DNA of 64,000 nucleotides, from the NCBI GenBank assembly GCA_947480015.1, contig CANKBS010000013.1, positions 1-64,000 of the forward strand, given 5' to 3'. Source of the stretch: Sphingobacteriaceae bacterium (GTDB taxonomy: Bacteria > Bacteroidota > Bacteroidia > B-17B0 > Aurantibacillaceae). Made by a program: the position numbers and the translations under genes. Positions 32,026 to 42,119 of the stretch are shown here, one piece after another (the first letter of the stretch is position 1; each line of letters opens with the position of its first letter). The notes under the pieces are model-generated. The model had not been told where the DNA came from. It did no database searches and saw nothing but the letters and a program-made list of their open reading frames with translations.

Positions 32026-32295
32026 TTACTCACCTGTAACTCTAACAAAATAGGTTTTATTGAATAAACCGCCTTTAACACCGTAATCTACAGTAGCGAC
32101 TTTATTAATACCACCATTTTTGGCTGCAGTTGCTACGCTTAAATCAACATTCATAGCAAGACCAAACCAAACTGTTTTTTCAACTTTACCTTCTTTTAAT
32201 CCGGCATTGCTAGTAACCATTAACGGATAAACTCTGGTACATGAGGTAGTTACCACTGAGGTAACTATTGCAATAAGTAAAAATATTTTTTTCAT
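32026..32295 (-). CDS. TRL-like family lipoprotein (copy 3)
   Basis: SCTRVYPLMVTSNAGLKEGKVEKTVWFGLAMNVDLSVATAAKNGGINKVATVDY. Confidence 0.75.
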   Translation of the reverse strand: MKKIFLLIAIVTSVVTTSCTRVYPLMVTSNAGLKEGKVEKTVWFGLAMNVDLSVATAAKNGGINKVATVDYGVKGGLFNKTYFVRVTGE

Positions 32296-32307
32296 GATTT
32301 CTTAGTT

Positions 32308-32589
32308 TTAATTTCCGTGAACAATAATTTCTTTTGTAGAGAATAAAATGAATTGAGAATACTTAATATCAGCAACTCCCACACCACCTTTTATACCGCC
32401 ATTATGGGCAGCCTGAGCAATACCAAAATTTCTATTTAATTCGAGTCCGCCAAAAAGCACTACAGTTTTTGAGGTACCTACTTTATTACCAATTGGAGCT
32501 TCAGAAATTGCCATTGGCATAGTTATTGAGCATGATGTAAGCACTGCTGCTACAGCAATGACACTTACAAATGTTGTAATTTTTTTCAT
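32308..32589 (-). CDS. TRL-like family lipoprotein (copy 2)
   Basis: SCSITMPMAISEAPIGNKVGTSKTVVLFGGLELNRNFGIAQAAHNGGIKGGVGVADIKY. Confidence 0.75.
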   Translation of the reverse strand: MKKITTFVSVIAVAAVLTSCSITMPMAISEAPIGNKVGTSKTVVLFGGLELNRNFGIAQAAHNGGIKGGVGVADIKYSQFILFSTKEIIVHGN

Positions 32590-32593
32590 AATC

Positions 32594-32845
32594 TTATTCC
32601 CCCGTTACTTTAACTGAAAATTTACCATTCGAATAAAGTTTGTAATCGACTGATCCTATTTTTGTGATTTTGGCTTCTTTAGCCACTGCAGAGAATCCAG
32701 CATCAAAACTGTGTCTGGTTGATTTTACAAATCCCTCTTTGGTGCCAATCGGGGCCCCAGTCGTTAAATGATAGCTCTGTATCACACACGACCCCATTAA
32801 TAGTGGCAGAGCTGCCATTATTAAGAAATGTTTAGTTTTTTTCAT
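32594..32845 (-). CDS. TRL-like family lipoprotein (copy 1)
   Basis: SCVIQSYHLTTGAPIGTKEGFVKSTRHSFDAGFSAVAKEAKITKIGSVDYKLY. Confidence 0.7.
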   Translation of the reverse strand: MKKTKHFLIMAALPLLMGSCVIQSYHLTTGAPIGTKEGFVKSTRHSFDAGFSAVAKEAKITKIGSVDYKLYSNGKFSVKVTGE

Positions 32846-32991: not shown

Positions 32992-34542
32992 TTATTTAGC
33001 ATAGCCGGTAGCTCTCACTTCCCTAATTACAGTCACTTTTACCTGACCAGGATAAGTCATTTCCGTTTGAATACGTTGTGAAATTTCAAAGGCTAATTCC
33101 TCAGCACGGGTATCGGTAACTTTATCACTCGATACAATCACACGCACTTCACGTCCGGCCTGAATCGCATAGGTCTTCTCTACCCCATCGTAACTTAATG
33201 CTAAGGCTTCCAGATCTTTTAAACGTTTCATGTATTGTTCGGCAATTTCTCGGCGAGCGCCTGGGCGTGCGCCACTTATGGCATCACACACCTGAATAAT
33301 TGGCGCGTATAATGTTGTCATTTCAACCTCATCATGGTGAGCTCCAATGGCATTTACAACTTCCGGCTTTTCTTTGTATTGCTCAGCCAATTTCATACCC
33401 AATAAAGCATGTGGTAATTCCGGTTCATTATCAGGTACTTTACCAATATCATGTAATAAGCCCGCACGTTTGGCCACCTTAGGATTTAAGCCCATTTCAC
33501 TGGCCATAATGCCACAAAGGTTAGCAACCTCGCGACTGTGTTGTAATAAATTTTGTCCGTAAGATGAACGGTATTTCATTCGTCCTACCATACGAATTAA
33601 TTCGGGGTGCAAACCATGAATACCCAAATCGATACAGGTTCTTTTACCCGTTTCGATAATCTCTTCTTCCAACATTTTTTTGGTTTTTTCAACCACCTCT
33701 TCAATACGAGCAGGGTGAATGCGACCATCGGTAACCAACTGGTGTAAAGCCAAACGACAAATTTCACGACGGATCGAGTCAAAACAACTCAAGGTGATGG
33801 CATCCGGGGTGTCATCCACAATAATCTCAACGCCGGTAGCTGCTTCAATGGCTCTGATGTTTCTTCCCTCACGACCAATAATACGGCCTTTGGTTTCATC
33901 CCCTTCAATGTGAAAAACTGAAATAGAGTTTTCAATAGCTGTTTCAGTCGCCACACGTTGTATGGTTTGCAGTACGATTTTTTTAGCTTCTTTGTTAGCC
34001 GTTAATTTGGCTTCTTCCATGATGTCTTTTACATACACCATTGATTGGGTTTTGGCTTCGGCCTTAATCGATTCCATTAATTGGGCCTTGGCATCTTCAG
34101 CTTTTAAACCGCTAATCTTTTCAAGCATTTCAACCTGTTTGCGGTGACCTTTTTCAACTTCCTCCAAACGGTGTTTGTATAATTCTGTTTGTTGATTGGC
34201 TTGTAATTTTGCATTCTCAAGTTCTTTATCCTTTCTGCTAATTTCTTCAACTTTTTTATTTATTTCGCTTTCCTTTTGTTTGGTGCGATTTTCAGATTGC
34301 GCAATGTGTGCATTCTTTTCTTGAACACTTTTATCGTGTTCAGATTTTAACTGCAAGAACTTTTCTTTTGCTTGTAGAATTTTTTCCTGTTTAATGGCCT
34401 CCGATTTTACTTCAGCTTCCTTAATCAGATTTTCCTTCTCTTTTGCAGCGCCTGCATTTAATTTACTTCCCGCAATGATAAACCCGGCAACAATTCCTAT
34501 TATCAGCGCCCCTGCTATTCCAATTAGTGTGATGATGTCCAT
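32992..34542 (-). CDS. rny: Ribonuclease Y
   Basis: N-terminal TM plus coiled coil, KH region [30 protein letters not shown] motif AGLLHDIGK; start MDIITLIG at 34542. Confidence 0.95.
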
Positions 34543-34630
34543 TTTTTTTCTTTCTATATATATTAATAAAAAACGCACAAATCTTAAGACCATTCTTAAA
34601 ATTTGTGCGTGTAAATTGGGTAAATTAAAT

Positions 34631-34942
34631 TTACTCCTCGTTAATAGTGTTAATGTTTTGTTGATGCTCTATTAGCATCGCCTCCACATCTTTAAATAGC
34701 TCTTTTAAATGGCTTAATTCCTTCTCCGCCATATTGGCCTGTTTGTAAAGTTGGGCTACCAGCTGCAACATTACCATTCCCAATACATCCTTCTTATCTT
34801 TAATTGCGTAGTTCTTTTCGAACTCAGCAATTTTGTTATTTATTAAATTAACAGCCTCTTTAATGTTTTGCTCGTCGTCGGCGTTTACCTTTAAAGGAAA
34901 AACGCTTCCGGCAATTTCAACTTTTATACTTATTTCGCTCAT
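34631..34942 (-). CDS. zapA: Cell division protein ZapA
   Basis: [64 protein letters not shown]; adjacent to rny. Confidence 0.9.
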
Positions 34943-34960: not shown

Positions 34961-37315
34961 TTAAGCACTTAATAACGCTATGCACTTATCAATTTCACGC
35001 ACCAAATCGTTTATCTGTTTTTTCATCTGCGGCTTTTCAGTAACTGCATCCGAATTATTCGCTAATATAATATTCTTTCGGTGACTATTCAAATCCGTAA
35101 CGTCAATTCGCTCACTATCAACTTGTTGCGAAATATTACCAATTACTTCGTTCATTTTTAACAATTGGTTGGCCATTTGCTCTTTTTCATCCAATAAAGC
35201 CAAACGCTGATCATTCAATCCGTCAATTTGCATGAACAGTCGGTCAATAAAGGCTTCCTGTTCGGCCACTTTAGCATTGTTACGCAGCGACTCAATCTCA
35301 GTTTCATAGTTGGCGATCTTCTCATTCATGGCAACCACACTCTCATTTAAACCGCTGATAACGGTTTGCATCACATCCATTTCAACCAATAAACTTTGTT
35401 TTTCGTTGTTTAAGAGGTTATAATTATTTTGTGCTTCTGCTAATGCCTCTGAAGATTGTAACGAATTACTTAATTGACCTTTTAATTCGCTCACTTCATT
35501 TTTTAATTGTGTGATTTCTTCAACCATGGCAGCATGATTCGCTTCCAGGTTGGTGATTTCGAAGTTTTTGTTTGCAAGGGTTTCTTTAAAATAATCGCTT
35601 TTACCTAAACTCTGAATTCTTACCTCTTCTAGCTCGCCTTTTAATAACGTAATTTCCGCTTCTTGAGCTTCCACTTTATCTTGAGCCAAATCAATCTCTT
35701 CAATGAGGTTAGAGTTTTCTGCCAATAATTTCTGATACTCTATTTCTTTTGCTAGGATTTCTTCTTTGGATGATAATTCGATTGTTGACTTAAAATTTTC
35801 CAATTCCGATTCCTTTTCAGAAATAGAATTTGTGAATACACTCAATTCGTTATTTAGTAATTCAATTTTCGTGTAAGCTTCGGTTAACTCGTTTGTCTTT
35901 TGCGCGATTACCGATTCAGCTTCGCTTAAGTGATTGGTAGTGGCTTCAAATAATAAACCTAAATTCGTTAACTCGGTATTTAGATTTTCAATTTGATTGC
36001 TAAGTTCGTTCACATAATCGCTGTGTGATAAATTTAAACCGGCAATTTGATTATTCAATTCATTTACCTGTTCGCTAGCTGAAAGTGAAGCGTTTTGTTT
36101 AAATAATTCAAATTCTGAATTTAAATTCGTGTTGCGATCGGCTTCATTTAATAACCGTAACTCCAGATCATTTAATTGAGCGCTTAAATTTTCAACTTCT
36201 GCCGTCTTTACTTCTAAACTCTGTGCAAGTTCTCCCAACACATTTACCGATCGGTCACTTTCAAGCTGAGCCTTGGCTAACTCCTCATTTAATTTTGAAT
36301 TCTGAGAATTGGAATGGATTAAGGTGTTTGATAATTTTTCCTCATACTCATTAATGATGCTGGCTGTTTTAACTTCATGCGAAGAAACTGTTTCTGTAAG
36401 GATTAATTCATGCGCCTTATTTAATTCGAGAATCTGATTTTCATAACCTGCACTCAAACGATTTTCTTTTTCAGTAAATTCTTGAGTTAAACTTTCAACT
36501 TGTGTGTTAAAATTGTTGGTTAGTGTACTTCTTTGTTCTTCTAAAGCAATGCGAAGATTAGTAATCTCAGATTGAAAATTCTGTTCCAATCCCTGAGAAG
36601 ATGCGGTTAGGCTTTCTTCCAGTTGGGTTAATTTAATTTGGTGATTTTGTTTTAAGGTCAATACTTCTTCCTCACTGGCATTTTTATATTCACTTAGCTG
36701 ATTCTCGAAATGAGAGCTAAGGTTATTTACTTCCAAAACATGAGCGCTGTTAAGTGCTATAATTTCTTCTTCATGCATTAAAACCAAACTTTGTTCACGG
36801 TCGGCCCAGTTAATGGCTAATTCAGAAGCGCGGTTCTCAAACTCTTCTTTAATACCGGCTTCTTTGTAATGGGTATTGGTTTTAAGGTCTATGATTTGTG
36901 CATTAAAATCATCTTTCACTCTGGTTAACTCGCTAGTGTTTTCGTTTTGAATCTCTTCAATTTTAGATTCATAGCTCGCTACAATCGAATTCAAATCGTC
37001 CTTCAGACTTTGAATTTCAGCCAATCTCGCCTCAATCTCCTCCTGTTTTGCCTGTAACTGATCTTTAATGGTACCTCTAAGTTCTTTAAATGCAGTTAAT
37101 TCGGCTTTGTAATTGTTATTGTCGCGCTCCATAACTACCAGCTTTGTGTTTAACACATCAATGGTAACTTGTAAGCGTTTACAGTCTTCATCACGCATTA
37201 TCAATTGGTTACGGTAGTCACTTAAGGAGCGTTTAAGTTCATTAAACTCTTTGCGTAGAACAACATCGTTGTCAAGGACTTCCTGTAATTCAGATTTTAT
37301 GCTTTGTACATTCAT
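34961..37315 (-). CDS. Large coiled-coil protein upstream of zapA
   Basis: 784 aa almost wholly predicted coiled coil (E/L/N/K-rich heptads); C-term MKKQINDLVREIDKCIALLSA. Confidence 0.85.
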   Translation of the reverse strand: MNVQSIKSELQEVLDNDVVLRKEFNELKRSLSDYRNQLIMRDEDCKRLQVTIDVLNTKLVVMERDNNNYKAELTAFKELRGTIKDQLQAKQEEIEARLAEIQSLKDDLNSIVASYESKIEEIQNENTSELTRVKDDFNAQIIDLKTNTHYKEAGIKEEFENRASELAINWADREQSLVLMHEEEIIALNSAHVLEVNNLSSHFENQLSEYKNASEEEVLTLKQNHQIKLTQLEESLTASSQGLEQNFQSEITNLRIALEEQRSTLTNNFNTQVESLTQEFTEKENRLSAGYENQILELNKAHELILTETVSSHEVKTASIINEYEEKLSNTLIHSNSQNSKLNEELAKAQLESDRSVNVLGELAQSLEVKTAEVENLSAQLNDLELRLLNEADRNTNLNSEFELFKQNASLSASEQVNELNNQIAGLNLSHSDYVNELSNQIENLNTELTNLGLLFEATTNHLSEAESVIAQKTNELTEAYTKIELLNNELSVFTNSISEKESELENFKSTIELSSKEEILAKEIEYQKLLAENSNLIEEIDLAQDKVEAQEAEITLLKGELEEVRIQSLGKSDYFKETLANKNFEITNLEANHAAMVEEITQLKNEVSELKGQLSNSLQSSEALAEAQNNYNLLNNEKQSLLVEMDVMQTVISGLNESVVAMNEKIANYETEIESLRNNAKVAEQEAFIDRLFMQIDGLNDQRLALLDEKEQMANQLLKMNEVIGNISQQVDSERIDVTDLNSHRKNIILANNSDAVTEKPQMKKQINDLVREIDKCIALLSA

Positions 37316-37764: not shown

Positions 37765-38628
37765 ATGAGGCAGCTAAAAATAACCAAATCCATCACAAAC
37801 CGCGAGAGCGCGTCGCTTGATAAATATCTTCAAGAAATTGGTCGTGAGGAATTAATCACAGCCGAGGAAGAAGTTATTTTAGCGAAAAAAATAAAGGATG
37901 GTGATCAACGTGCCCTTGAAAAATTAACTCGTGCAAATTTACGTTTTGTGGTTTCCGTTGCTAAACAATATCAAAATCAAGGTCTGAGTTTACCCGATTT
38001 AATTAATGAAGGTAATCTTGGTTTAATTAAGGCGGCACGTCGTTTTGATGAGACTCGAGGTTTTAAATTTATTTCTTATGCCGTTTGGTGGATTCGTCAA
38101 AGTATTCTTCAGGCATTAGCTGAACAAAGTCGTATTGTGCGTTTACCATTGAATCAAGTTGGCTCATTAAATAAAATAAACAAAGCTTATAGCAAACTCG
38201 AACAACTATTTGAACGCGAACCAAGTGCTGAAGAATTAGCAGATATGCTTGATTTGCCCATTGATAAAGTTAGTGACACCATGAAGGTTAGTGGTCGCCA
38301 TGTAAGCATGGATGCTCCTTTTGCCAATGGCGAAGAAAGTAGTTTGTTGGATGTATTAGTGAATTTAGATTCACCAAAAGCCGATACCGGTTTGATGAAT
38401 GAATCACTTAGTAAAGAAATTGATCGTGCCTTAAGCACGTTGACTGAAAGAGAACGTGATGTAGTGAAATTGTTTTTCGGCATTGGTTTAAATCATGGCT
38501 TAACGCTTGAAGAGATTGGTGATAAATTTGATTTAACCCGCGAACGCGTGCGTCAAATTAAGGAAAAAGCTATTAGACGTTTACGTCACAGTAGTCGCAG
38601 TAAATTGCTACAGCAATATTTAGGGTAA
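37765..38628 (+). CDS. rpoD: Primary sigma-70 factor (RpoD/SigA family)
   Basis: [93 protein letters not shown]. Confidence 0.95.
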
Positions 38629-39746: not shown

Positions 39747-42119
39747 ATGAATCGTTATATTTTTACATTCATTCTAATTCGTGCAACTGCCCACCTTTTT
39801 TCACAAGAAGACAGACAAGTTAGCAGTGGCATCTTTAGGTTAGAAGATCTATCTAAAATTTTAATAAAGGAAATAAATCGTTTTCGCTTGGAAAAAGGTT
39901 TAGACAGCCTTGAAACCAGTGAAATGCTGTTAACCGCTGCAGAAATGAGTTCTCAGGATCTCATGGATAATGAATCAGAAAAGACCAACCGCAAAAACAC
40001 TTTAAGCTATTTAAAACTCATTGGTGCAACACAACGTGGCGAAGAACTCACCATGAAGGGTGATATTCTGAAAGGCCGAAGTGAATACACAGCAGCAGAA
40101 GTTGCCAAAGTAATTTATACGAGATGGGGAAACAATGCTAAAGATCTGCCTGTATTAACCAACCCGAAATATACGTTGGTAGGCATAGTAGGCAGTATTG
40201 ATGAGAATGGGGAAAGGGTATATGTAAGTGCTTTTTTTGGAGGCTATGATATTATGAACGGCGGCGTTATTTACAAAAAACAACTAACCGTGCCTTTTAA
40301 TACCAAATCAAAAAGATTAAAAGGTCCCGATCTTAAAACCTGTAAAACGTGTGAACGTTGGCATAATTTTGACCTATTGCAAAAAGGCTTGTATGTATCT
40401 CAAGGAAAAATCTTACTTCGTTATCCAAATGCCAAAGAACTTCGTAGCTTTCTTAAAAAAACAAAAGACGGCTTGGCTTTTGATATTGTGCAACGCAGCC
40501 AGTACATCAGTGCCGATTATAATATTTTAGATAACAACCTTTACAATAAAGGTTTAATGGGCAAAGTTATTTATACAGATAAATTCTTTAAAAAGAATTT
40601 ACTCATAACCAAGGATAAAAAAGCGAACCGAAAAGTAAAAGGTATTGAAGTAGAAATGGGCGAAATGGATCCTAAAATAACAGGTCCATATGAACTTAAT
40701 TTAATTGTGGTGCAAAACGGTGCTGTTTGTAAAACGATTACCCGTGGTTATACCGAAACCAATACCGCTGAAAGTGACACCCCTATCGGGCTATTGGCCA
40801 TGCCTAACAGTCGCGGTTTAAAGCCGGCGTTCGAACCATATTCCGAAAGTTCTATTCTCAATTTTATTATTCCTTTTGAGAAAAATAAATCTGAATTTAA
40901 GGAAGCCGACATTCAGCCTTTAATAAAAGCCCTTAACGAGCCTGATTTTATTATTGACGGATTATATATTGAGGCCTACTCTTCTATTGAAGGTGACTCT
41001 GCTACTAATTATAAACTCCAGCAAAAACGGGCCGAAAGTGTGGTAAATGTTTTACAAGGTTTTCAAAATTCTAAAATAAAACCAAATATTCTTACGCGTG
41101 ATAGTTGGGGGTTATTTTTATTGGAGAATGAAGATGGTAAATATGCCGATATAGTTAAATTAGGGAAATACAAGGCTATTGAGCGCATTAACAGCGATAA
41201 AAAATTACTGGAAGAATTAGAACCCATTTTGGCTAAAGAACGATTTGCCCACATCATTATGGATGTGACCTATGATGTAAGTGGTAATAAAGAACAGATA
41301 GTATCGCAGGTAAGTTTTAACAGAGCTGTGAAGTCTAGTAACATAAAATTATCTTATAAAATACTTGACCTCATTCATAAACGTGTACAGGAAGGCAAAT
41401 ACAGCGCCTCCATATACGACAGTTTAAAAATTGATGAAACACTTGCAAATGTGGGTATTCTAAACAATCACATCTTCTATCAATATCAGGTTACAAATAA
41501 TGTGAGTGATGAGGATGCGGCAGCCTTTAATCGGTTGGTTAAAATTGAACCATTAAATCCTATTCTTCAATACAATTCGGTTTTCTGCCAACTTAAACTC
41601 GACCGCAATGCCGGTATTCCAGAACATCAGGCTCAAGTGCAACAAACCATTAATAACTTATATGGTAAGTTAGACAGTAATATGGTTAATGGTTTAAATA
41701 TCGAATGGCAATTCAAAATCATGGAAAGTCTCGATACGCTAACAAATGCCGAAGCTCAGATTGACGCTTGTATCGCAAGAATCAAACAATTTTACACTAT
41801 TAAAGAAGCTACCTGGCAAAGCGCATTGAAATTAGCAGTGGTGTTTAATCGCATCAAAGATTATTCATATGCTGCCGCCTTACTTGAGCCTTATGTGTAT
41901 AAGGCTCAAGTAAATGAAAATTTAGTCTTTATGTATATTAGTTCAGCTAGTCGTGTTCAGGAAAAATATTATTCACGCACGTTTGCTAAAGCTTTGGAAA
42001 TTGCTAAAACTAAAAATCAGGATCGTTACTGCAAGTTATTTGGTGAACCCTTTATGACTTTTCAGGTCTTAGAAAACCCTCAAGTAAAACGCACCTATCA
42101 GGCCGCCTGCAGCAGGTAA
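39747..42119 (+). CDS. CAP(SCP/PR-1)-like plus OmpA-like multidomain secreted protein
   Basis: LIKEINRFRLEKGLDSLETSEMLLTAAEMSSQDL resembles CAP N-terminus; NFIIPFEKNKSEFKEADIQPLIKALN...IEAYSSIEGDSATNYKLQQKRAESVVNVLQ resembles an OmpA-like domain. Confidence 0.65.
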   Translation: MNRYIFTFILIRATAHLFSQEDRQVSSGIFRLEDLSKILIKEINRFRLEKGLDSLETSEMLLTAAEMSSQDLMDNESEKTNRKNTLSYLKLIGATQRGEELTMKGDILKGRSEYTAAEVAKVIYTRWGNNAKDLPVLTNPKYTLVGIVGSIDENGERVYVSAFFGGYDIMNGGVIYKKQLTVPFNTKSKRLKGPDLKTCKTCERWHNFDLLQKGLYVSQGKILLRYPNAKELRSFLKKTKDGLAFDIVQRSQYISADYNILDNNLYNKGLMGKVIYTDKFFKKNLLITKDKKANRKVKGIEVEMGEMDPKITGPYELNLIVVQNGAVCKTITRGYTETNTAESDTPIGLLAMPNSRGLKPAFEPYSESSILNFIIPFEKNKSEFKEADIQPLIKALNEPDFIIDGLYIEAYSSIEGDSATNYKLQQKRAESVVNVLQGFQNSKIKPNILTRDSWGLFLLENEDGKYADIVKLGKYKAIERINSDKKLLEELEPILAKERFAHIIMDVTYDVSGNKEQIVSQVSFNRAVKSSNIKLSYKILDLIHKRVQEGKYSASIYDSLKIDETLANVGILNNHIFYQYQVTNNVSDEDAAAFNRLVKIEPLNPILQYNSVFCQLKLDRNAGIPEHQAQVQQTINNLYGKLDSNMVNGLNIEWQFKIMESLDTLTNAEAQIDACIARIKQFYTIKEATWQSALKLAVVFNRIKDYSYAAALLEPYVYKAQVNENLVFMYISSASRVQEKYYSRTFAKALEIAKTKNQDRYCKLFGEPFMTFQVLENPQVKRTYQAACSR

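Follow-up and report, generated by a model that had tools for sequence, protein, structure and literature searches.

ZauP of Caulobacter crescentus is a short coiled-coil protein that works with ZapT. Encoded with zapA in the zauP-zapA operon, it binds ZapA, with affinity for ZapA rather than for FtsZ (PMC7858052), and recruits a terminus-binding protein (PMC7858052, PMC7188993). In Escherichia coli, the ZapA partner is ZapB (PF06005; PDB 2JEE), an all-helical coiled coil that forms a layer inside the division ring, about 40 nm inside FtsZ, with MatP about 30 nm further in, for a total of about 70 nm (PMC4388696). Streptococcus pneumoniae has a non-ZapB partner, ZapJ, and also offers a caution: Spd_0370 is co-transcribed with zapA yet does not localise to the ring, so co-transcription with zapA is no proof of a ring role (PMC8687745). 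Outside Proteobacteria and streptococci, ZapA partners appear to be essentially uncharacterised, and our literature searches returned nothing on a coiled-coil protein encoded upstream of zapA in Bacteroidota. Here we analyse such a gene, of giant size, in a 64,000-nt stretch of DNA from a Sphingobacteriaceae bacterium; we call this whole stretch the window.

Results

The giant gene leads a minus-strand cluster in the order giant, zapA, rny, with gaps of 18 nt and 37 nt; the operon is predicted from these intergenic gaps.

34961..37315, minus strand: giant coiled-coil gene, 784 aa, first of the predicted operon with zapA and rny (open reading frame, family-wide conservation, dN/dS well below 1)
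34631..34942, minus strand: zapA (PF05164, 51.7 bits, E 1.1e-13; the sole PF05164 match in the genome)
32992..34593, minus strand: rny, encoding RNase Y, the downstream gene of the cluster (TIGR03319, 627 bits)

The frame begins with ATG and its product ends in INDLVREIDKCIALLSA; a sigma-70 gene (37765-38628) lies divergently upstream. A preliminary description of the locus had called the 784-aa product nearly all coiled coil and placed it directly before zapA, which is confirmed by the 18-nt gap, by a composition of 0.1% proline and 1.7% glycine, and by AlphaFold2, which predicts helices only, with few breaks (full-length monomer model, mean pLDDT 73.5, pTM 0.22, taken for secondary structure and breaks only). 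The frame is not a chance one, because it is kept in every congener with a complete locus and dN/dS over the whole gene is 0.03-0.13 in close pairs.

Nothing in Pfam or NCBIfam matches the giant above cut-off, and the Pfam families GAS, MmcB-like and Pox_A_type_inc, all below it, were rejected. Automated annotation may suggest an SMC or Rad50-like chromosome protein, and NCBIfam SMC_prok_B does match at E 7e-11, but with 40.6 bits against a cut-off of 567 and through coiled-coil sequence alone. The ATPase head domains are absent from all family searches (Pfam and NCBIfam), which rules out this identity; the similarity is that of generic coiled coils, and we give the SMC reading practically no chance of being correct.

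Elsewhere in the window, a 790-aa protein (39747-42119, plus strand) weakly resembles both a CAP domain and an OmpA domain, each below threshold, an unusual pairing. Three tandem small proteins with signal-peptide-like starts (32026-32845, minus strand; 89, 93 and 83 aa) resemble the TRL-like family PF13146; of these, the 89-aa protein alone exceeds the Pfam cut-off, and the other two are divergent copies.

The giant has a small counterpart across the class. In Bacteroidia at large, zapA is directly preceded by a gene for a coiled-coil protein of about 95-120 aa with the tail [IV]NELVREIDKCIALL. Among genomes outside the giant's family with both coordinates listed, this gene comes just before zapA, in the same orientation, in all 120 gene pairs, at a median distance of 38 nt between match ends, so the gene of about 100 aa with a similar tail that the preliminary description expected in this position does exist. 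The preliminary description had also proposed aligning the C-termini, with a lack of homology as a ground for refutation, and that comparison finds homology: in hhalign, 77 of the 97 columns of a seven-member short-family profile pair with the final 77 residues of the giant, represented by an alignment of long proteins, with a probability of 97.8 and E 1e-12. Two further alignments, A1 and A5, match the C-terminal module to the short protein, and the A1 profile, built on this module from long and short proteins together, picks up short members across the class.

The short protein, for which we found no curated family, thus shares with the giant its place before zapA and rny and a homologous C-terminal stretch of 77-97 residues; it differs in having neither the N-terminal module nor the long rod described below, and in measuring about 95-120 aa against 415-911 aa for the giant family. 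Because of its 784 aa, outside the range of about 95-120 aa that defines the short family, we class the giant as an enlarged variant and not as a typical short-family member.

The enlargement is not confined to one species. A survey of close relatives, also proposed earlier, gave 640-889 aa in the first 16 congeners examined and 540-889 aa in all those sampled; the 16 share a near-identical INDLVREIDKCIALLSA end, with at most 1-3 substitutions in most. Across the order (87 genomes, all of one family), 80 match the A1 profile, with open frames of up to 911 aa; several short frames among these are matches near contig ends in fragmentary assemblies. We read whole 40 zapA-bearing loci of this family, f1, in genera coded g1, g14 and g16-g22 (the codes run over g1 and g14-g22). 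A contig end truncates one of these loci, and the remaining 39 encode coiled-coil proteins of 415-910 aa; in all 40, zapA is adjacent and on the same strand, with -8 to 33 nt (median 18) between the coiled-coil stop and the zapA start. In the rest of the class, 187 further genomes match A1, with frames of 66-193 aa among the matches listed, and in a draw across the phylum the longest frame outside the family is 221 aa among the matches listed, matches beyond the class being weak.

The massive N-terminal expansion proposed from the window alone is therefore supported and proves to be a trait of a whole family (415-911 aa). In an Rny tree that includes the sampled outgroups, all its members fall into a single clade (SH-aLRT 99), so the long gene probably arose by one enlargement at the root of this family. 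Its genera g14, g16, g18 and g21, which we call group B, have proteins of 415-665 aa, and in most of them the C-terminal module is nearer to the short proteins; other genera mostly have 640-911 aa, with 540 and 564 aa in two congeners. All 55 named family records that we found are metagenome-assembled genomes, so we know of no cultured member.

Alignments and models divide the giant into the following parts.

36986..37315, minus strand: N-terminal module, residues 1-110 (strongest constraint; strong matches in family f1 only)
35255..36985, minus strand: coiled-coil rod of variable length, residues about 111-687, with heptad and hendecad periods (autocorrelation, in-genus indels)
36290..36346, minus strand: conserved helix break in mid-rod, residues 324-342, YEEKLSNTLIHSNSQNSKL (AlphaFold2, column identity)
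34964..35254, minus strand: C-terminal module, residues 688-784, aligning to the short protein encoded upstream of zapA (A1, A5, hhalign E 1e-12)
34964..35029, minus strand: terminal 22 residues, ending in KKQINDLVREIDKCIALLSA, predicted ZapA-docking helix (bit scores, model of the group B C-terminal module)

The expansion includes a discrete N-terminal module, and this is its most constrained part. Within the genus, column identity over residues 1-100 is 0.77-0.96, and, with purifying selection on all three parts, dN/dS in close pairs is 0.0-0.05 for the N-terminal module, 0.04-0.16 for the rod and 0.03-0.06 for the C-terminal module. A profile of the N-terminal module (A4), run over 247 class genomes, finds strong matches in family f1 only; weak, partial matches outside it (E 2e-5 to 1e-3) were taken as coiled-coil noise. 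Group B proteins begin with a divergent yet recognisable version.

The lack of any convincing relative of this module in the rest of the class would fit a fusion with an unrelated neighbour gene, or an annotation artefact, as the source of the long N-terminal part. An artefact is excluded by a single uninterrupted frame in dozens of family genomes with dN/dS well below 1 throughout, and several genera hold intermediate lengths (415-561 aa), which also speak against fusion; we judge this explanation quite improbable as a whole. An ancient fusion followed by growth of the rod is a possible origin of the N-terminal part.

The rod is strongly periodic. Self-similarity peaks at lags of 7, 11, 14, 22, 33, 44, 55, 66 and 77 residues, with a hydrophobic periodicity of about 3.5 that rises to 3.62-3.70 in residues ~106-357. 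Indels within the genus include steps of 7, 18, 22, 33, 42, 44, 55 and 66 residues, and 11 of the 15 counted are divisible by 7 or 11, against about 22% expected (binomial p 3e-5, a rough value since the events are not fully independent), which indicates that rod length shifts mostly in steps that keep the coiled-coil register. The rod is interrupted around its middle, where AlphaFold2 leaves residues 327-346 non-helical with pLDDT mostly below 50 and column identity over residues 321-340 is 0.78; on this model, YEEKLSNTLIHSNSQNSKL may be a hinge or a binding site. At the other end, the group B C-terminal module is modelled at a mean pLDDT of 90.5 as two helices, a long one and a last one of about 24 residues (H73-96), with a short break between them.

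One genus, g15, separates the tail from the rest of the protein. In the Rny tree it branches within the family next to g20, a pairing with SH-aLRT 93 inside a larger clade with SH-aLRT 99. In its four genomes, neither Pfam nor a family-specific ZapA profile at E<=0.1 finds ZapA, and this profile does detect the ZapA of g20 and of the window genome; FtsZ was found in three of the four and rny in two. In the two genomes whose locus is intact around rny, a coiled-coil gene of 727 or 672 aa precedes rny at an interval of about 255-270 nt that holds no recognisable ZapA. Small ORFs (64 and 66 aa, starting MKNS; L174:5364-7725, L175:5679-7881) overlap the end of the giant where zapA would be; they do not resemble ZapA and were rejected as such.

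The g15 coiled-coil genes are the same gene as the giant, because the BLASTP alignment extends over residues 20 to 753 of the window protein (E 4e-9) and both the N-terminal module (23-26 bits) and a segment of the pattern LxxHRKNxIxA (the HRKN segment, 15-17 bits) are recognised. We accordingly rejected loss of the whole gene along with ZapA: the gene is present and its tail is unrecognisable, VREIDKCIALLSA being replaced by LNTQLTTLFNEKLN or LNTQLNQILNEKLS. The tail scores -1.6 bits in the two g15 members against 25-65 bits in 39 ZapA-bearing relatives, a contrast that represents one evolutionary event in two species with genomes 89% and 96% complete. The simplest reading is that conservation of the tail depends on ZapA and the work of the rod and N-terminal module does not, and this joint decay lends indirect support to a ZapA partnership. 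Since the giant survives without ZapA, it must have some function besides that partnership, which may itself be of minor weight.

Across the class, a recognisable C-terminal module is absent from 19 of 19 genomes without ZapA and from 33 of 228 with it (247 in total), and at a completeness of 90% or more it is present in none of the 12 genomes without ZapA and in 172 of the 204 that have it (Fisher p 1e-9, uncorrected for phylogeny), an association inflated by gene adjacency and by contigs missing from draft genomes. Some other Bacteroidia (for example family f43; G166, G103 and G025) keep rny with both ZapA and the short partner undetected; G166 has a 103-aa coiled-coil-like ORF before rny (L177:6672-6983).

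The persistence of the giant in g15 could also mean that it chiefly forms a cytoskeletal filament or scaffold of its own, behaving like crescentin or FilP and assembling through its N-terminal module and rod, with the ZapA link a leftover of its origin. Its composition and all-helix model resemble those of filament-forming coiled coils, and the N-terminal module is its most constrained part. A leftover would not persist, however, and every ZapA-bearing member preserves the tail better than any other C-terminal feature; group B keeps the tail though the adjacent HRKN segment has become unrecognisable there, and gene order with zapA is intact in 40 of 40 ZapA-bearing loci. We therefore consider a mainly filamentous role unlikely.

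Discussion

Our best reading of these sequences is that the tail docks on ZapA and that the rod and N-terminal module serve a second, ZapA-independent partner. In detail, the amphipathic helix at the C-terminus, INDLVREIDKCIALL, most probably attaches to ZapA and, through ZapA, to the FtsZ ring. The rod would project inward from the ring, carrying the near-invariant N-terminal module, and this module would bind the second partner, which might be the nucleoid, the envelope or a further giant molecule. ZapA binding, oligomeric state, septal location and the tether role are properties that we infer from sequence. That one genus, on losing zapA, kept the rod while its putative docking tail decayed suggests that the rod probably connects the division ring with some other part of the cell. 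Taken jointly with this docking tail and tether, we find it fairly likely that the giant is a lineage-specific enlarged form of the short Bacteroidia zapA-upstream protein, with its last 97 residues as the counterpart of the ancestral protein.

Drawn out as a straight helix at 0.1485 nm per residue, the 784 residues would measure at most about 116 nm, so a single giant could bridge a distance such as the roughly 70 nm from FtsZ to MatP. More tentatively, it is possible that the protein is a one-molecule tether of about 100 nm from ring to nucleoid or envelope, combining a ZapA-docking peptide, an in-register rod and a new N-terminal anchor, and that one genus uncoupled it from ZapA and kept it for its second job. 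A more specific version, in which it links the ring to the chromosome or its terminus, draws on analogy: the E. coli and Caulobacter ZapA partners act in this way (PMC4388696, PMC7188993), and the distance from FtsZ to MatP is comparable in magnitude with the roughly 100 nm that the giant could reach (PMC4388696). The N-terminal module, however, shows no DNA-binding signature or known family in a Pfam search, which leaves a chromosomal link rather unlikely.

This work names a candidate conserved ZapA partner for Bacteroidia, with a predicted docking tail, and a lineage that has enlarged that same candidate roughly eightfold. We envision the variants of 415-911 aa as a natural series for the spacing between the Z-ring and an inner layer, and g15 as a natural control with neither the tail nor ZapA.

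Of the described partners, ZapB was the one to which the preliminary description likened the giant. The likeness holds as a functional parallel and fails by the ZapB profile: the giant has no PF06005 match, and of 15 C-terminal modules, 3 match it weakly (best E 3e-4, none above cut-off). In a PDB sequence search 2JEE appears at E 0.03 among unrelated, generic coiled coils, and a Foldseek search of the C-terminal module against the PDB gave no match; these two results speak neither for nor against kinship with ZapB. ZapB is also far shorter, at 81 aa against 784. With ZauP, the giant shares a coiled-coil gene placed upstream of zapA in a predicted operon, a likeness of position. ZauP and ZapB may thus be regarded as functional parallels, not as shown homologs. 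ZapJ is a non-ZapB partner restricted to one lineage, as the giant is, but its gene is linked to murC and that of the giant to zapA (PMC8687745). Set beside the E. coli arrangement, the giant would be a long tether or spacer, one long molecule in place of a ZapB layer and MatP.
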